The notes under the pieces were generated by a model that was not told the DNA's origin, searched no databases, and was given only the letters and a program-made list of their open reading frames with translations. This document shows, piece by piece, positions 2,056-25,628 of a stretch of 35,762 nt of DNA. The DNA comes from Acholeplasma sp. Lineage in GTDB: Bacteria > Bacillota_I > Bacilli_A > Acholeplasmatales > Acholeplasmataceae. How positions within the stretch are numbered: position 1 is the first letter of the stretch; every line of letters begins with the position of its first letter. The stretch is taken from NCBI GenBank assembly GCA_012838065.1, contig DUPY01000057.1, positions 1-35,762 of the forward strand, written 5' to 3'. Position numbers and translations under genes: made by a program.

Positions 2056-3393
2056 ATGTCAGTATTTTTAAGAAACATATCAATAAAGGGTATAAAAAAT
2101 TTATGTGAACCAGTAGAATTAACATTTTGCAAAAAAGAAATTAAAAATTTTGATGAGGTTCAAGACTATAATATAAAAGCGATTTACGGACCTAATGGTT
2201 CTGGGAAGACAGCAATAGTGCATGCATTCCAGATCTTAAAAGGATTTATCACAGAAACTGGATATCTTTTTAATAAAGAAAAAATTAAATATTTGTCTGA
2301 GTTGATGAATAAGGCATGTAGTCATGTTGAAATTAAAGCTGATTTCTTTTTTAACAACGACAACAAAGATGTTGTAATATATACTTATCAAGTTGGAATA
2401 GTTAAAAAAAATGAAGGTTTTGAAATCGCAAATGAAAAATTATCCTTGAAAACCGCTGAATACAACAAAGAGAAAGTTATTATCGAAACAAAACAAGGAG
2501 AATTCGTGACATATGCCTTATCTGAATCAATCAAATCAAGTTTCACCAATCTTTTAATCAAGAGATCATTTGTAGAAATTCTATTGGATTTAGTTAGAAA
2601 AAATGATGATGAACTTAATGATGAGATAACAAGAGGCTTAAATGAGACTTTTATTGTTGTAAAGCCAATACTTCAATTGGTATACAATATGAAAGTTATT
2701 CTAGACGTTAAAGATGAACACGTAAAACTATTTCCAACATCAGATGAAAAACTAGAAGAAATGATTAAATGGCGAAAAGAAAATCAAGAGCTGATTTCTA
2801 TGATTGAAACCTTAGGATATAATACTCGATTAATGAGTCAAAAAGAACTTGATAAGTATCAAAAAGAAGTACAAAGAAAAGTTGAGTTTATTAAAATTTT
2901 CAAACCAAATATTAAGAATATAGAATTGGTATATAAAACCGTAGTGTCTTCAGATAATAATAAAGTATATTCCGTAAATGAGTTCATTGATTATGGTGAT
3001 TACAGCATTGACTTAGAGCTTGAAAGTGTTGGGATTAAAAAGCTGATGAATTTATATAATTCAATCAAGTTCTTATCTGATGGTGGTATTCTGATTATTG
3101 ATGAACTAGATTCACATATAAATGATATTTACTTAGTTAAATTAGTTGAATATGTATCTAAATATGCAAAGGGACAATTAATTTTTACGACACATAATGT
3201 TTCACCAATGGAAACACTGAAATCAAAAAAATATAGCATTGATTTTATGTCAATGTCAGGAAAAGTTATATCTTGGACCCAAATAGGGAATTATTCTCCA
3301 TCGAAGCTTTATAGAAAAGGGATGATTAATGGGTTGCCATTTAATCTTGATTCTGAAGATTTATTAGGAGTATTCACAGATGATGAGTCCTAA
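2056..3393 (+). CDS. AAA family ATPase (AAA_15/RloA/AriA-like), probable defence ATPase
   Basis: This 445-residue protein starts at ATG behind TTGGAGGGATT. It has an SMC/OLD-like ABC-ATPase layout. The Walker A motif GPNGSGKT is at 45-52, and a long, charged insertion of about 280 residues follows. A signature-like helix (LESVGIKKLMNL, near 320) precedes Walker B ILIIDE at 345-350, with catalytic Glu350. The switch motif TTHN has His380. This arrangement is that of the ATPase halves of two-gene abortive systems such as AbiL, RloA/RloB and PARIS (AriA). The stop overlaps the next gene by 14 bases, so the two are translationally coupled. It probably senses infection or binds DNA and holds its partner in check, which is inference from those families. 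It sits beside decayed mobile DNA. Confidence 0.8.
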   Translation: MSVFLRNISIKGIKNLCEPVELTFCKKEIKNFDEVQDYNIKAIYGPNGSGKTAIVHAFQILKGFITETGYLFNKEKIKYLSELMNKACSHVEIKADFFFNNDNKDVVIYTYQVGIVKKNEGFEIANEKLSLKTAEYNKEKVIIETKQGEFVTYALSESIKSSFTNLLIKRSFVEILLDLVRKNDDELNDEITRGLNETFIVVKPILQLVYNMKVILDVKDEHVKLFPTSDEKLEEMIKWRKENQELISMIETLGYNTRLMSQKELDKYQKEVQRKVEFIKIFKPNIKNIELVYKTVVSSDNNKVYSVNEFIDYGDYSIDLELESVGIKKLMNLYNSIKFLSDGGILIIDELDSHINDIYLVKLVEYVSKYAKGQLIFTTHNVSPMETLKSKKYSIDFMSMSGKVISWTQIGNYSPSKLYRKGMINGLPFNLDSEDLLGVFTDDES

Positions 3394-3922
3394 TGTTCAG
3401 TTCATTGTGTGTGTCGAAACAGATAAAAAGGCTGCAACAGACTCTAAATATATTTCTGGGATATTAAAAGAATATTTTGATTTGGGAGAAAATAAACTTA
3501 CCTATGTATTTCTTGGCGGTAAATTTAAGTATAACCATCCTACTATTGTTAAAGAAATAAATACTAATATTAAAGAGTACCAAGTAACCAACAAAGGGCA
3601 GTCATTTATTATTTTCATTTCAGATAAAGATATAAACACTGCCGATCCAAGAGATAATCAATATGTTGATGATATTACAAACTACTGTAAAGATAATGGT
3701 TATGAAATTGTATGGTTTGTCAAAACAATTGAAGATGTCATATGGGGAACTACAATAAGCAATTCGGATAAGGTTAAAAAGTCGGTTCAATTTATTAGAA
3801 ATAAACAAATAAAACATGTATCAAAGAAAAATCTATCAGCTGGAAATAATGTTAATTCTAGACCCAAAAGCAACATTTTAACAGTTTTTAATAAATATCC
3901 TCAGATAAAAAAACAAAAGTGA
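3380..3922 (+). CDS. Small TOPRIM/RloB-like partner of the AAA ATPase, putative nuclease effector
   Basis: This 180-residue protein starts at one of two adjacent ATGs, with AGGAG about ten bases upstream inside the ATPase gene. The N-terminal strand ends in Glu13 (FIVCVETD). A later strand carries a DxD-type motif, ISDKD (Asp82, Asp84), and a third region reads VKTIEDVIWG (Glu118). Conserved Glu, then DxD, then an acidic 'E-x-W' helix is the order seen in TOPRIM-fold RloB/AriB-type proteins paired with AAA_15 ATPases. The match is by motif order only and overall similarity is weak. It is shorter than AriB and about the size of RloB. It ends in TGA. In this context the likely role is the toxic effector of an abortive-infection pair. 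It could instead be an unrelated small Rossmann-like protein. Confidence 0.55.
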   Translation: MMSPNVQFIVCVETDKKAATDSKYISGILKEYFDLGENKLTYVFLGGKFKYNHPTIVKEINTNIKEYQVTNKGQSFIIFISDKDINTADPRDNQYVDDITNYCKDNGYEIVWFVKTIEDVIWGTTISNSDKVKKSVQFIRNKQIKHVSKKNLSAGNNVNSRPKSNILTVFNKYPQIKKQK

Positions 3923-10950: not shown

Positions 10951-11619
10951 ATGAAACATGTTGTAGATAAGGCTTTAATTAAACTTCAAAATGTATCGTT
11001 AACATCTAAAACAATGCACACAAAAACAGGTGATATTCGTAAAATATCACAGGAGTTATTTAAAGAACTTGAAGATAAATCGATTCATAATGTTTTAAAC
11101 ATTTGTAAAGAATTATTAGATACGAGAAACTGGAAACTAAGTGTCATTGCTTTTGATTTTGCATATCGAATAAGAAAACAATACACGGATAATATGTTTG
11201 ATGTTTTTGAATCTTGGCTTTATACGTATGTTAGAAACTGATGCGATTGTGATGACTTTTGTACACATGCCTTTGGCTACTTGCTTCAAGCAAGACCGTA
11301 TCTTTATGAAAAAATTATACCATGGACAAAAAGTAATGATTTTTGGGTTAGAAGAGCAAGTGCAGTTATCTTAATTTTATCAATAAAAAATGAAGTAATC
11401 GAAACATCAAAAGTCTTTAAAATATCAGATCTTTTAATGAATGATGATCACGATTTAGTGAGAAAAGGTTATGGCTGGATGTTAAAAGTTTTATCAACGA
11501 AAAATCAACAAATCGTTTTTGATTATTTAATGAAACACAAAACGGATATGCCAAGAGTATCCTTTCGTTATGCTCTTGAAAAAATGGATAAAGAATTAAA
11601 AAAAGTTTTGATGTCATAA
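10951..11619 (+). pseudogene. AlkD-like DNA alkylation repair gene with an in-frame TGA
   Basis: Two same-frame halves (10951-11238 and 11242-11619) join into about 222 codons, the usual length of the AlkD family of HEAT-repeat DNA glycosylases for alkylated bases. The first half ends ESWLYTYVRN, then TGA (11239-11241), then CDCDDFCTHAFGYLLQ. In AlkD the corresponding segment is a conserved Trp, three residues, then the catalytic Asp (W109/D113 in Bacillus cereus AlkD). Here the TGA sits at the Trp place and the Asp four codons later is intact. The later 'DFWVRRASAVILIL' matches the W-x-RR segment with the catalytic-site Arg. The reading frame is otherwise undamaged, so the loss is recent, or TGA is read through. 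The gene starts one base after the phosphorylase stop. Confidence 0.8.
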
Positions 11620-13801: not shown

Positions 13802-13882
13802 GATTAAAAATAGTGAAAAAAGACAAAGAAAGTTGTTTTTTGTAATGGCAATTTCAAAAAAATAAGTATATACTTAATACAA

Positions 13883-14211
13883 TCGCTGAAGGTTGATGGT
13901 ATTGTATCAGTAAGCCCAAGGTTATTGAGGTTTGTAAAAAGCGTGGGGTTACAGCAATCTTCCGTTTCTTCTTAAAAGATGCAATGTCGCTTGAGCAAAG
14001 CATTGGCTTGGCTCGAAAAACAAACCCCGATTATTTGGAGATTTTACCAGGCACAGCACTTGATGTTATTGATTTAATTCGTCCACTTGTACAACAACCA
14101 TTAATCTTTGGTGGACTTATTACAAAAGAAAGTCAAATTCGAGCTTGTATTGAGCGTGGCGCAGTCGCAATTACAACAAGTGATGATTCACTTTGGGAGA
14201 TATCAATTTAA
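13883..14211 (+). pseudogene. Frameshifted remnant of glpP (glycerol-3-phosphate-responsive antiterminator)
   Basis: The C-terminal part of GlpP is clear: 'KPKVIEVCKKRG', 'NPDYLEILPG', 'QPLIFGGLITKESQI' and 'AVAITTSDDSLWEI', as in the family's TIM-barrel-like fold. The preceding 'VDGIVS' lies in the neighbouring frame (13892-13909), so one base has been lost or gained around 13909-13912. The N-terminal third of the family (about 70-80 residues) is missing upstream. No ribosome binding site or start codon fits. No glp genes flank it. The region 13802-13882 before it holds only AT-rich sequence. Confidence 0.85.
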
Positions 14212-14297: not shown

Positions 14298-14303
14298 ACT
14301 GAT

Positions 14304-14529
14304 ATGGCGTTGAATAAGAGTAGTAGACAGATGTACTAAACATAGAGAACTAGTGGTTGGTGTAAACTAGTAAAAGGCATCTATCGAACGTGCTTAGGAG
14401 CTTATAAGTCGAAGGATCTTGAGGCTTATACGTATGTCGGCGAAAACGACTAGGAGTGCTAGACATTGTCTAGAATTAAGGTGGTACCGCGTTTATTACG
14501 TCCTTAGCTTACGAGCTAAGGATTTTTTT
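14304..14529 (+). promoter_or_regulatory. T-box riboswitch, specifier read as CGU (Arg)
   Basis: Stem I elements are in order: an AGTAGTA start (about 14329), AGAGA (14344-14348), and ACTAGT (14349-14354) closing on ACTAGT (14366-14371) around the GGTTGGTG distal loop. Then comes GAA-CGT-G at 14386-14392, the usual 'GAA, specifier, purine' layout. Stem III is CTAGAC-ATT-GTCTAG (14459-14473). The T-box motif TGGTACCGCG is at 14482-14491. CCTTAGCT-TACG-AGCTAAGG (14502-14521) plus seven T residues forms the terminator. AAGG before the T-box can pair with CCTT to form the antiterminator. Uncharged tRNA would therefore switch on the transporter genes downstream. AAC (Asn), one base earlier, is the main alternative specifier. 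Confidence 0.93.
14502..14529 (+). terminator. Conditional terminator of the T-box leader
   Basis: An eight-base stem with a TACG loop and seven T residues. The left arm competes with the antiterminator helix. Confidence 0.92.
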
Positions 14530-16814: not shown

Positions 16815-17183
16815 TTATTGTTTACAAGATTCACAGTATCCATAAAACGTTAAGTCGTGTTCGATAATTTGAAAGTTTAATTTTGACTCAAAGTTTTTTA
16901 TTTGATCTTCTAAATGACAGTCAAATTCAAGAATTTTTTTGCACTTAAGACACATCACATAATGGTGATGCTCATGGTTTTTTATGATTTGATAATACAT
17001 GGTACCTTGAATATTACTTTTTGAAACAAGACCGTTATCAAATAAAACATCGAGTGTTCGATAAATAGTTGATAAGTCCATTGCATTTTTTGGTAATTCT
17101 TGATTGATGATTTCGGCACTCATCGGTTTTTTATATTGTTCAAGGAGTGAAAAAATGGCTTTACGATGTTTTGTCATTCTCAT
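16815..17183 (-). CDS. zur: Fur-family metalloregulator, probably Zur
   Basis: This 122-residue protein has a winged helix at about 1-75, with recognition helix LSTIYRTLDVL (37-47). A His cluster HEHHH (70-74) leads into the first structural-zinc pair CLKC (78/81), and the second pair CESC is at 117/120. Length and Cys pattern fit Zur/PerR/Fur; no residue decides between them. Linkage to znuABC makes Zur the likely choice. The ATG overlaps the znuB TGA stop as ATGA, so it is translated with the transporter. It probably represses the operon through the palindrome at 19620-19636, forming an autoregulatory loop. Confidence 0.85.
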   Translation of the reverse strand: MRMTKHRKAIFSLLEQYKKPMSAEIINQELPKNAMDLSTIYRTLDVLFDNGLVSKSNIQGTMYYQIIKNHEHHHYVMCLKCKKILEFDCHLEDQIKNFESKLNFQIIEHDLTFYGYCESCKQ

Positions 17184-17995
17184 ATTGATTCCCCCTTAAA
17201 TACTTTTCGAATGAGTATTGATATTAGTAAAACAAACGTGTATACAACGACAATTGTTGAACCCGTTGGAATATCAATAACATACGATAACCATATCGCT
17301 ATAAACACTAAACCAATAACACTTAAAGCGCTAATAATTAATGTGCTTTTAAAACTTTTTGCATATTGTGAAGCAATTAATGCAGGGAAGATTAAATAGG
17401 CAGATATCAATAACATACCAACTGTTCTCACACCGATTACAATAAATACAGCACTTAAACTTGATAAAGCATATTTTAAAAGTTTATGTTTTACACCAGT
17501 AACTTTGGCGTGTGTTAAATCATAGGCTGATGAAAGTAGCGGGCGATAAAACAATAAAACAAAGATTAAAACAGCGACAAGTAAAACAAGTGCTGTATAC
17601 ACATCATATCTTGTGGATGCTGTAATCATACCAACTAATAAGCTTTCTATTGAGCGATTAAAGCCATCTGACAAACTTACGACAATTAAGCCGACAGCCA
17701 ATGAAAATGCGGATACAACGCCAATAGCAGCATCATGATGCATCATTTTTTGTTCACCTAAAAAAGTTATCGCAAACGATGCGAGTACTGCAAATGGAAT
17801 GGCAAAGTATAACGGTTGACTAAAGAGTAATACACCAAAGATAATACCTGTGAATGCAACATGACTAAGTCCATCAGCAATCATGGATTGTTGATTTAAA
17901 ACTAAAAACGGACTCAATAGTGCAGCACTTACTGCCAGTAGTATTCCTAACAAAAGGACGTTTTGAATAAGTGGCGAGGCTAAAAAATCAAACAT
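17180..17995 (-). CDS. znuB: Zinc-type ABC transporter permease ZnuB
   Basis: This 271-residue ABC-3 family membrane protein has seven to nine helices and carries Zn2+ (or Mn2+) inward. Two ATGs lie close together. I use 17995 because AGGAGG is eight bases before it but only two before the upstream ATG. Family features: 'FLVLNQQSMIADGLSHVAFTGI' near the N-terminus (the ADxLSHV motif) and 'DAAIGVVSAFSLAVGLI'. The gene overlaps znuC upstream and zur downstream. It stops at TGA. Zinc versus manganese cannot be told from the permease; the regulator and His-rich binding protein favour zinc. Confidence 0.9.
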   Translation of the reverse strand: MFDFLASPLIQNVLLLGILLAVSAALLSPFLVLNQQSMIADGLSHVAFTGIIFGVLLFSQPLYFAIPFAVLASFAITFLGEQKMMHHDAAIGVVSAFSLAVGLIVVSLSDGFNRSIESLLVGMITASTRYDVYTALVLLVAVLIFVLLFYRPLLSSAYDLTHAKVTGVKHKLLKYALSSLSAVFIVIGVRTVGMLLISAYLIFPALIASQYAKSFKSTLIISALSVIGLVFIAIWLSYVIDIPTGSTIVVVYTFVLLISILIRKVFKGESI

Positions 17996-18701
17996 GGTCA
18001 TGGCCTCCTTTGTTATGTGATTTAAAATCTTTTAAGGAACCAAAATATTTAACTTCTTGGTCAACGTACATTAAAATATGGTTATCGCAATCTAAGTTAT
18101 TAACATCATGAGTAACAAAAATAATGGTCATACCCTCATCGTTTAATTTATGAATAAGTTTATAAAACTTAGTCCTAAAATCAGGATCAAGTGCACTTGT
18201 TGGTTCATCTAAGATAAGAATTTCTGGGTTAGAAATAATCGAGCGGATGAAAAATACACGTTGTTGTTGACCTCCAGATAATGTAGCCATCATTTCGTTT
18301 TTATAATCCAATAAATCCATTTCAATGAGCCACTTATCAATAAGTTCATGATCTTTTTTAGATACAAATAATCTTTGGTTATTAAAACCTGAATAAATAA
18401 CTTCAGATACGGTAATCGGAAAGTTTGATTTTGAATTTAACGTTTGAGGTAAATAACCAATTTTTTTAGTTGTAATATCAATCGTACCAGCTGAAGGTTT
18501 TACCAAGTTTAATATTGATTTTACAAGTGTTGATTTCCCACCGCCATTTGGGCCGATGATGTATAAAAAATCCTGTTTATATAATTTGAAATCAATATTG
18601 TTAAGTGCAGATAAATTACCATATTTAACACTTACATGATTGAAATCAATCATTAAGGGCAAGTTTGATATATTCGTAGTTTTGTTTGAATAAGTCGACA
18701 T
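17988..18701 (-). CDS. znuC: Zinc-type ABC transporter ATPase ZnuC
   Basis: This 237-residue ATPase has Walker A GPNGGGKST (50-58), signature LSGGQQQR, Walker B ILILDEP and H-loop VTHD. Start choice: ATG 18701 has GAAGGAG six bases upstream, better than the longer frame at 18725 or the internal ATG at 18653 that lacks a site. With this start the gene overlaps the 3' end of znuA by 56 bases, an unusually long overlap, and adds about 16 residues before the normal N-terminus of the fold. The C-terminus 'GGHDHV' is His-rich, as in several zinc ATPases. It ends in TGA. Confidence 0.9.
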   Translation of the reverse strand: MSTYSNKTTNISNLPLMIDFNHVSVKYGNLSALNNIDFKLYKQDFLYIIGPNGGGKSTLVKSILNLVKPSAGTIDITTKKIGYLPQTLNSKSNFPITVSEVIYSGFNNQRLFVSKKDHELIDKWLIEMDLLDYKNEMMATLSGGQQQRVFFIRSIISNPEILILDEPTSALDPDFRTKFYKLIHKLNDEGMTIIFVTHDVNNLDCDNHILMYVDQEVKYFGSLKDFKSHNKGGHDHV

Positions 18702-21962: not shown

Positions 21963-24900
21963 ATGTTCTCTACAGTTCAAAAAAATATGTTAAATGCTTT
22001 CCATTATTATGGAGAAAAATATCCCATTCATATTGGAGGGATTTTATACTTGCCAAAAGCATATAAAGATAGACTCATAGAAGCTATTTATCATGTAACT
22101 AGCGATATTGAATTACTAGAGTATACACTTTTAAACAATACTTTTGTTAAGACGAAACAAACGTTAGTCATTGATGAATTATTCGACATCTCAGCAATCC
22201 AATCATATTTCGATAAACCATTTATAGAGGAAACATTACTTTATCGAATAGGCATACTTATTCAAAAAGATAATCTTTTACTTATATCTGTATTCAATCA
22301 TTTAATTAGTGATAGCTACAGCATGAATCTGTTCTTACATGCTGTTTTATCGTATATAAGTCAAAAGGAAGTATTTGAATTTAATAATAACTATGACGAT
22401 TTTGTTAAGAGTGAACATGAAGGGAAAAACACACGAGATTTTTGGAAAAACTATTTAGAAAACTATAGCCTAACATCTATATCCAGTTTTCCATATACAA
22501 AAAAATTATTTAAAACAACTCGTAAAGCACTCACCTTTTCAAATTCTGAATCGAAACTTATTGATGAATTTTGCATCAAACATAATGTTTCACCAGCAAT
22601 TGTATTTGAATCAGCATTAAGCTATATCTTAAGTCATATTCACGGTGAAAACAATGTTACATATGGCATTACATCACTTAATCGAAAATCAGCATTTAAA
22701 CAAACCTTTGGACCGTTTATTCAAACCCTTCCAATAAAAGTTGAATTAAAAAATTCAATAAGTGAGACACTAAAAAGCATTCAAAGACGACATATGGAAG
22801 TTTTTCGCCATCAAAGTGTTGATTACAAAGACTTGTTGTATCTAAATAAAAATGAAGGTGTGTTATTTGATGCGTTAATTACTTACCATAAGCCATTAGA
22901 TGAAACTTATAATATACCATATAAGTATGAAGTCTTAAATAGTTCCTATAACGATTTACCTCTAGTAATAAACATTGAGCGAAGAAACTTAAATCATCCC
23001 TATATAGTTTATTTTGACTTAAGTAGTGAAATATTCAATGATGAGGAAGAAAGGTTTTTAAAACGATTTAAACACGTTTTACTTGACATCATACATGAAC
23101 ACAAAATAACTTACCTACTTGAAGATGAAGCGTGTTACTATAACAATCAATATGTGTCTTGTTATCGTAAAAAACAGTCATTGATTGATACGATTGAAAC
23201 AACTTTAAATATGTATAACTATTTAAAAATTTATGATTTAAATAATGAAATGACGTTTGAAAAATTAAATAGACTTCGTAAAAAGTTCGCATATAAGCTA
23301 AATATGTTTTATGAACATGAAGAAATTATTGAATTAAATCTTGATAAATCGATTGAATTAGTAATTGCTATATTAGGTGTATTAACAGCGGGGAAGATAT
23401 TTACAATAAAACAGCAAAACAAGTCCATTTATCCATCAATTTCAATGGATTTCTTTAAGGATATTGAATCCTATGGTTTTTTAGATAATAAGCCTAATGA
23501 AAGAATTGCAGTTTATTACACATCAGGTACAGAAGGACCAAGTAAAAAAGTTTTACTCACGGAGGATGCACTATTAAACTATATAGAAAATGTACCTTTT
23601 AGTTGTAACATTACAACAAAAGATACCATATTAAGTATATCTAACCCAACATTTGATATTTTTTTAGAAGATATAATGCTCGCTTTTATCAAAGGAACAT
23701 CGATTGTGTTATGCGATCTTGAGCACACATCACAAATCGATAAAGAATTGACATACATATCAACAACACCAAGTGTTATTTATCACCTTTTGGAATATCA
23801 TACATCAATTTTTAATTCAGTAAAACACATTGTATTAGGTGGTGAGACCCTCACACAAAATATAGTAAATAAACTAAAAAGTGTGTCTCAGGCAACAATC
23901 TACAATACCTATGGTCCAACAGAGACTACGATTGCCGTAACAGCAACAAAAGTTGATAAAGAGTTAAGTATTGGTAAACCTATAAAAAACGTAATCGTTG
24001 AAGTGCGTTCAAAGAATAAAAAACGATTACCATTTTATACATTAGGTGAAATAACTGTAGGTGGCATCGCATTAGCAGACCATATTGACCTAACAGGAAC
24101 AGAAGAAGGCTTGCGATATTTTACAGGCGACTATGGCTATATAGATAGTAAAGGTTTTATACATTTTTTAGGCCGCCGTGACCGTGAAATTAAAAGGCGT
24201 GGTGTCAGAATCAATTTAGAAGGTTTAGACAATATCTTAAATGGTCATCCATTAGTAAAACAGGCCGTATCTAAATATCATGATGGAAAAATAATTAGTT
24301 ATATCGATGGTTTAAACCTTTCAAAAGAGACAATCTATAATTACTTAAAAGAGAATTTACCACAAACATGGTTACCCGATGGAATCGAAAACTTAAATGC
24401 AAGTTTATCCAACCACGGGAAACTTAAAGTCAATCGTAAATCGATATTTAAACCAAAGACAAAAAAAGAAAAAACCTTTTTAAAGGTAGTAAAAAAGGTC
24501 TTTGAAATTGATAAACTTTATGTAGAAGATACATTTAATGATATTCATGGCACATCAATTAAAGCATTAATTTTAATTATTGAGCTGGAAAAATATGGTA
24601 TACACATATCGATGTCAAACATTTATAATACACGCTATGTTGTTGATTTATTAAATCATAAACAAAATGAAGGCTTAGAGATAGATTTCAACAACTTTAA
24701 ATTAGAAGCTAATGAAATTATTTACAAGGAAAAAAAACCAAAAGAAGTTTTAGTCCTTGGTGCAAGCGGCTATTTAGGCAGTCATCTCACATTTGAACTT
24801 ATGAAACAAAACATTCGAGTTATTGCATATGTGAGAGATCAACATAGATTTTATACACACTATAATAAGTATTTCAATGAATCTTTTAACGGCATTATGA

Positions 24901-25628
24901 TTGAAGGACATACAAGAGAACTTAAAAACAAACTTAAATCATTTGACATTGATTGTGTAATTAACTGTATTGCTAAAGTTGATTACGTAGGTGAAGCGCG
25001 ATTGTATGAAGAAGCAAATGTTCAAAGTGTTGTTGATATCTTAGCGTATGTAAATGAAATAAATATCCCTTTATATCACATATCCACATTAGGTCTTGGC
25101 ATAAACCAAGAAGATTTTAACGAAACAAGTAAAATTAAAAATCCAATGTATGATAATTTATACTTAAAATCAAAATTCATGGCCGAATATCTTGTTTTAA
25201 AAGAAAATATCGATAAAGTTAAACACCACATTATCCGAGTTGGTAATTTAATGCCTAGATTTAAGGATTATAAGTTTCAAATTAACAAAGAGGAAAACTT
25301 ATTTATGTTGCTACTCCAAAATGCTAAAAAGACAAAAGTATTACCACAGAGTTATCAAAATACTTTGTTTGACGTATCACCAGTTGATTTCGTATCAAAG
25401 AAAATAGTTCATCTTATTAAATATGAAACAAATATGCCTGTATATCATGTTTTTGAAGAACCAAAAGTAACACTTGAAGAAATAATCGGTAATATTCATT
25501 ACGATAAAGGTACACATCTATCGATACCAATCATCAGTGCCTCGTCGAAATATACAAATATGCTTTTAGATGAAACAAAGTACCCTAAATTATATATTGA
25601 TCAAACCTATTTGAAACATATGTTATAA
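21963..25628 (+). CDS. Single-module nonribosomal peptide synthetase, C-A-PCP-reductase
   Basis: This 1221-residue enzyme starts at ATG behind GGTGAGG. The condensation domain (about 1-385) has NHLISDS, where His113 and Asp117 keep the HxxxD core. The adenylation domain (about 400-830) has A3 YYTSGTEGPSKK (518-529), A5 NTYGPTETT (648-656), A7 YFTGDYG (719-725), A8 GRRDREIKRRGVRI (737-750) and A10 HGKLKVNRK, with Lys820 or Lys822. The carrier domain (about 835-900) carries the phosphopantetheine Ser865 in IHGTSI. The terminal reductase (about 925-1221) has the NAD(P) motif GASGYLG (933-939) and the Tyr1067/Lys1071 pair. It should load one amino acid, join it to an acyl or aminoacyl donor, and release it as an aldehyde or alcohol. 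By hand alignment to GrsA, the pocket is D-I-E-S-I-L-T-I-A-K. No phosphopantetheinyl transferase, thioesterase or tailoring gene is nearby. Lys2-like aminoadipate reductase is the main alternative family, but the condensation core argues against it. Confidence 0.92.
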   Translation: MFSTVQKNMLNAFHYYGEKYPIHIGGILYLPKAYKDRLIEAIYHVTSDIELLEYTLLNNTFVKTKQTLVIDELFDISAIQSYFDKPFIEETLLYRIGILIQKDNLLLISVFNHLISDSYSMNLFLHAVLSYISQKEVFEFNNNYDDFVKSEHEGKNTRDFWKNYLENYSLTSISSFPYTKKLFKTTRKALTFSNSESKLIDEFCIKHNVSPAIVFESALSYILSHIHGENNVTYGITSLNRKSAFKQTFGPFIQTLPIKVELKNSISETLKSIQRRHMEVFRHQSVDYKDLLYLNKNEGVLFDALITYHKPLDETYNIPYKYEVLNSSYNDLPLVINIERRNLNHPYIVYFDLSSEIFNDEEERFLKRFKHVLLDIIHEHKITYLLEDEACYYNNQYVSCYRKKQSLIDTIETTLNMYNYLKIYDLNNEMTFEKLNRLRKKFAYKLNMFYEHEEIIELNLDKSIELVIAILGVLTAGKIFTIKQQNKSIYPSISMDFFKDIESYGFLDNKPNERIAVYYTSGTEGPSKKVLLTEDALLNYIENVPFSCNITTKDTILSISNPTFDIFLEDIMLAFIKGTSIVLCDLEHTSQIDKELTYISTTPSVIYHLLEYHTSIFNSVKHIVLGGETLTQNIVNKLKSVSQATIYNTYGPTETTIAVTATKVDKELSIGKPIKNVIVEVRSKNKKRLPFYTLGEITVGGIALADHIDLTGTEEGLRYFTGDYGYIDSKGFIHFLGRRDREIKRRGVRINLEGLDNILNGHPLVKQAVSKYHDGKIISYIDGLNLSKETIYNYLKENLPQTWLPDGIENLNASLSNHGKLKVNRKSIFKPKTKKEKTFLKVVKKVFEIDKLYVEDTFNDIHGTSIKALILIIELEKYGIHISMSNIYNTRYVVDLLNHKQNEGLEIDFNNFKLEANEIIYKEKKPKEVLVLGASGYLGSHLTFELMKQNIRVIAYVRDQHRFYTHYNKYFNESFNGIMIEGHTRELKNKLKSFDIDCVINCIAKVDYVGEARLYEEANVQSVVDILAYVNEINIPLYHISTLGLGINQEDFNETSKIKNPMYDNLYLKSKFMAEYLVLKENIDKVKHHIIRVGNLMPRFKDYKFQINKEENLFMLLLQNAKKTKVLPQSYQNTLFDVSPVDFVSKKIVHLIKYETNMPVYHVFEEPKVTLEEIIGNIHYDKGTHLSIPIISASSKYTNMLLDETKYPKLYIDQTYLKHML

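Follow-up and report, generated by a model that had tools for sequence, protein, structure and literature searches.

A gene of the AlkD family in a draft Acholeplasma sp. genome (1.18 Mb in 67 contigs, 98.4% complete) carries an in-frame TGA at a codon where its relatives have tryptophan, and we asked whether this stop reflects loss of the gene, reading of UGA as tryptophan or an error in the sequence. The gene lies at positions 10951-11619 on the plus strand of the 35,762-nucleotide stretch of DNA that was analysed (hereafter, the window). Its 5' half (10951-11238) runs from the ATG through the last codon before the stop, 96 codons in all, and is followed by the TGA (11239-11241) and by a 3' half (11242-11619) of 125 codons and a TAA. 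Both halves are read in frame 1, and the initial annotation of this DNA had likewise placed them in the same frame. Directly upstream, on the same strand, is a PNP/UDP phosphorylase-family gene (PF01048; 10173-10949), and because its TAA ends one base ahead of the ATG of the AlkD-like gene, the two are probably co-transcribed. When neighbouring genes were read by eye, no phosphorylase gene was seen directly upstream of two AlkD homologues (L066 and L079), and the gene pair of the window is therefore not conserved at these two loci.

Each half of the gene matches the DNA_alkylation profile PF08713, the 5' half at 6.1e-07 over profile positions 30-95 and the 3' half at 2e-30 over positions 103-213. 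As these parts of the profile adjoin, the halves represent neighbouring parts of one domain. Read through the stop, the gene matches the same profile at 3.7e-44 (151.4 bits; cut-off, 21) and provides the one PF08713 match in the whole genome. The existence of the interrupted AlkD-like gene as a gene is thus well beyond chance. A structural model of the read-through protein has a mean pLDDT of 95.2, and a fold search with this model ranked HEAT-like glycosylases first (AlkD, Z 21.6; AlkD2, 16.5; AlkC, 16.0). Bacillus cereus AlkD aligned over 206-208 residues with an rmsd of 2.3-2.5 (3bvs: Z 21.6, 208 residues, 2.3), and the modelled read-through protein has the AlkD fold.

To relate individual residues to AlkD, a profile of 32 homologues was used, which finds AlkD at E 2.4e-15. 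In this alignment, residue 97, the position of the stop, corresponds to the second Trp of AlkD's SWWDSVD, and Asp101 corresponds to AlkD Asp113; in a preceding alignment based on a 5-sequence profile, the Trp had fallen one position earlier and a gap was present. The 3' half carries this Asp101, Arg134-Arg135 and Trp176, the last of which lies within a GW motif that aligns with the GW of AlkD. The catalytic residues of AlkD are given as Trp109, Asp113 and Trp187 in the available text of PMC8626424. The initial annotation had described family residues in both halves, among them the Asp four codons past the stop, and this description is borne out by the profile matches and by the alignment of Asp101. 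Judged by its sequence and model, the gene before the lesion would have encoded an ordinary AlkD-type alkylpurine DNA glycosylase, whose activity is predicted. Literature searches found no paper on this AlkD-like gene.

The stop itself occupies a position at which 92 of 92 homologues have Trp, and this position aligns with the catalytic Trp109 of Bacillus cereus AlkD, in agreement with the earlier placement of the TGA at the AlkD active-site Trp. This Trp was part of the search patterns that yielded 80 of the 92 homologues, so that these are partly selected on it, while the remaining 12 are same-family loci from whole-length searches, unselected on Trp. Of the catalytic Trp/Asp pair, then, the Asp is present in the window copy, and the Trp equivalent is kept in the family and is the lesion codon here. 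The location of the change is not improbable in itself. A gene with Trp at residue 97 is open to 19 nonsense transitions, 12 of them in Trp codons; six of these 12 give TGA, and four of the six fall at the conserved Trp residues 89, 97, 125 and 176. Given a nonsense change, a TGA in a Trp codon is among the outcomes to be expected.

Apart from the stop, the gene is intact, as had been proposed from the sequence letters. The window protein departs from the family at 0 of the 40 strongly conserved positions, taken as alignment columns with conservation of 90% or more among the other 92 rows, and 33 of the 40 lie downstream of the stop; leave-one-out departures over all 93 rows have a median of 1 and a range of 0-13. 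Neither a frameshift nor any lesion other than the single in-frame TGA was found in the gene. With 0/40 conserved positions altered, the gene has therefore decayed little or not at all after the lesion. For a neutrally evolving tail, 0 changes in 33 codons would put an upper bound of about 0.09 per codon (95% level, ln20/33) on the amino-acid divergence accumulated from then on. The reading frame is disabled by the TGA under this genome's code, and relaxed constraint after the lesion is not seen at the downstream conserved positions (0/33 changed), because of which we regard the gene as a putative very recent pseudogene and not as an established one. That the gene is otherwise wholly undamaged is also compatible with continued selection on a full-length protein, or with a base error. 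According to the available text of PMC7918605, in-frame stops in bacterial genes mostly last on the time scale of population polymorphism; genes that contain them show dN/dS < 1, and frequent read-through is argued there.

Interpretation of the lesion depends on how this genome reads TGA, which is a working stop codon. In a sample of 364,387 bases (31% of the genome; ORFs of at least 100 codons), TGA ends 49/309 ORFs (15.9%) and is the rarest stop. Its share in three relatives, sampled at 400 kb each, is 58/351, 51/340 and 48/337 (16.5, 15.0 and 14.2%). The use of TGA as a stop elsewhere in the genome is as the initial annotation had described it from other genes, and the search for prfB that it had proposed revealed an intact gene with GGQ and SPF. 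The available text of PMC12421855 states that prfB-bearing Mycoplasmatota are mostly Acholeplasmataceae. The tRNA-Trp with a UCA anticodon that had been suggested as a second check did not turn up among 19 tRNA genes, an incomplete set with no Met or Ile, so that such a tRNA might lie in missing sequence; the only tRNA-Trp found has the anticodon CCA.

Other interrupted genes were sought in the same sample. A homology scan flagged three stops, AlkD among them; the stop of ORF 17180-18001 is a natural ORF end, and the stop at L176:4452 lies in a shadow frame, the ORF around it being intact and UvrA-like (named by eye); an Rfam check of this stretch found nothing. Once these two artefacts are set aside, no internal stop except that of the AlkD-like gene is left in the 167,663 sampled bases that have homology to three relatives. 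A TAA in L170:17452-18201 was rejected as a lesion, as the frame before it holds a full Fic domain and the TAA may be a natural end. A geometric scan of the 364,387 bases returned seven candidate TGA-split genes, again with AlkD among them. In two of the others, intact UvrB and IF-2 genes follow the stop (a separate L7Ae-family gene precedes IF-2, and the stretch ahead of UvrB is without a family); in another two, neither side has a family, and the last two (L161:2725; window position 13854, minus strand) were judged by eye only. A coding-score scan missed the AlkD stop itself and was dropped.

From these observations, the likely explanation of the locus is a nonsense mutation, either very recent or still segregating, in a dispensable AlkD-type gene. 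With a single-base change at the catalytic Trp codon, translation would yield 96 residues and stop short of the catalytic Asp and of the second half of the HEAT-like solenoid. Loss of the catalytic Trp, the catalytic Asp and half of the fold would leave no working enzyme, and the gene would now be either a pseudogene of very recent origin or a null allele for which the population is still polymorphic. Translation restart after the stop was considered and rejected: there is no in-frame ATG for 65 codons, and the first candidate start, a TTG 13 codons on, would give a product without the catalytic Asp. A recent nonsense mutation was also the simplest view in the initial annotation, and it fits best with the catalytic Trp in relatives, the absence of change at 40 conserved positions and the working TGA stop. 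We infer a real and recent change, as opposed to a base error, and with it the loss of the enzyme. The stop is ordinary unless read-through is demonstrated, and the locus would provide, in a small genome, a clean example of an accessory repair gene lost very recently.

The distribution of the gene bears on its dispensability. Among 88 family genomes, own genome included, the AlkD gene was found in 18 at E <= 0.001 and in 13 strongly (E <= 4.4e-49), so that 12 of the 87 others have a strong match. In a tree, the window protein is placed near Clostridium cadaveris and other Clostridia, apart from its own family, with a moderate support of 90/97 that is not starred and a bootstrap that is not settled. 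Because the protein groups with Clostridia and not with its own family, the gene may have been acquired from elsewhere, as far as the tree of sequences indicates. Damaged copies also occur in other genomes. The AlkD homologue of family relative G015 (L002:1440-2100) has probably lost one base from an A-run close to codon 12, and the homologue in a Ruminococcus MAG (L121:5001-5668) is interrupted in frame by a TGA at a different Trp codon (residue 61 of the query), the sole stop in the match; a third homologue, L131, has one internal TAG. The genome of the Ruminococcus MAG yielded no match to a 13-base tRNA-Trp motif. The AlkD-like gene looks dispensable, because it is patchy, possibly exchanged and repeatedly broken.

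The window holds several further features. Two remnants show older decay within it: a glpP remnant (glycerol-3-phosphate antiterminator, PF04309) at 13846-14211 retains only the C-terminal 71 profile positions and no intact start, and a LysR remnant at 1075-1566 on the minus strand consists of the substrate-binding domain, with no intact DNA-binding half in the three upstream frames. A T-box leader at 14301-14508 (RF00230, 130.3 bits) precedes genes that appear, by eye, to encode an amino-acid ABC transporter. The region 21963-25628 encodes a 1221-aa NRPS-like protein with Condensation, AMP-binding and reductase-type NAD_binding_4 domains, which is unusual in so small a genome. At 2056-3922, an AAA_21 ATPase (AbiEii-like) gene overlaps that of a 180-aa partner without a Pfam match, and this pair looks like a two-gene defence unit.

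One alternative to a nonsense mutation is an error of base calling, assembly or binning, with the gene intact in the organism. We consider this unlikely, although the gene is perfect apart from a single substitution and the assembly is a 67-contig draft. A consensus base in a unique place is seldom wrong, and the site is unique, the genome holding a single PF08713 match. In addition, the rest of the sampled conserved sequence is free of interruptions, which argues against a generally poor consensus.

The next alternative is leaky read-through, in which near-cognate tRNA-Trp(CCA) would sometimes read UGA as Trp. A little full-length enzyme with its native active-site Trp would then be made, and the gene would be a low-expression allele and no null. 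Its attraction lies in the only tRNA-Trp found, which has A24 (with U11) and an unpaired C27-U43 that leaves a 4-bp anticodon stem. In E. coli, G24A, C27A and G43U forms of tRNA-Trp(CCA) mediate UGA read-through (PMC13092985). The available text of the same paper reports that many bacterial tRNA-Trp genes with 4-bp stems occur and that such stems are linked to lower UGA use in 13/19 orders; the 4-bp class with A24 is set aside there. The unaltered state of 33/33 downstream conserved positions would also fit a protein that is still made.

Against this, the tRNA-Trp is ordinary for the order, and sampled relatives use TGA as a stop. In a survey of tRNA-Trp genes, 56/61 genomes had a match, and among the best-matching 30 loci that were read, own one included, A24 is present in 30/30 and the 27-43 mismatch in 14/30; because of these counts, the unusual tRNA is no private trait of the window genome, and that idea was rejected. 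Of the relatives, G024 has a C-U mismatch at 27-43, G003 an A-U pair and G013 a G-U pair, and TGA use in this genome differs little from that in the relatives, whether or not they have the mismatch. As an observation on the order in its own right, A24 and a frequent 27-43 mismatch (for example in L030, L031 and L032) coexist with TGA ending 14-17% of sampled ORFs in four genomes.

Tests for general leakiness were likewise negative. The share of TGA among stops in this genome is similar to that in the three relatives. Back-up stops within five codons are in no excess after TGA (3/13 vs 31/100, p 0.75, a low-power comparison from which near-neighbour genes were left out). In-frame extensions of at least 30 codons follow 1/40 TGA-ended ORFs vs 39/237 TAA- or TAG-ended ORFs (all ORFs, uncorrected), and we put the fewer long extensions after TGA down to neighbouring genes. 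No other interrupted conserved gene was found in the sampled homologous sequence. The base directly after the TGA is T, and a T in this place favours termination in E. coli. The suggestion of read-through in the initial annotation thus gains from tRNA-Trp features linked to UGA reading in E. coli and loses at the level of the genome, where read-through is possible but unsupported, and for the AlkD-like gene we rate it improbable, a little behind a base error. Broader still is the idea that the order's native tRNA-Trp(CCA) reads UGA as Trp well enough for nonsense changes at Trp codons to be only partly disabling, with the AlkD gene kept as a low-expression allele. We hold this to be more doubtful again; if true, it might mark an initial stage of UGA capture in a lineage other than that of Mycoplasma. 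Were read-through shown, early steps of UGA-to-Trp reassignment would be testable in a lineage that retains RF2.

A code in which UGA is a Trp codon in this lineage, now or until recently, whether of the Mycoplasma type or as the relic of UGA/Trp ambiguity raised in the initial annotation, would suit a small AT-rich genome with TGA as its rarest stop and a TGA at a Trp codon, but is extremely improbable against an intact prfB, a tRNA-Trp with CCA, TGA at the end of 49/309 ORFs and only one TGA at a Trp codon, with no second, in the 167,663 homology-covered bases; a Mycoplasma-type code in this genome is rejected. Selenocysteine insertion was also rejected, as no SelB exceeded the TIGR00475 cut-off (the best frame, of 398 aa, reached 194.8 bits vs 242.25).

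A recent nonsense mutation thus remains the preferred reading, and the locus can be compared with three known systems. Like the genes with in-frame stops treated in the available text of PMC7918605, it has a single stop in an otherwise intact, apparently young gene; unlike them, the stop is known here from a single genome. The tRNA-Trp resembles the 4-bp-stem tRNA-Trp(CCA) of PMC13092985, so far as its available text describes them, in its CCA anticodon, in its unpaired C-U at 27-43 and in being the only tRNA-Trp found, and differs from them in also having A24 and in serving a genome where UGA ends the usual proportion of genes. Finally, in comparison with Bacillus cereus AlkD (PDB 3bvs, 3jx7; PF08713), the window gene has 18-19% identity over the structural alignment and a stop in place of the catalytic Trp codon, while its sequence, its predicted fold and the W-x-x-x-D spacing of the catalytic Trp and Asp are those of an AlkD-like protein.
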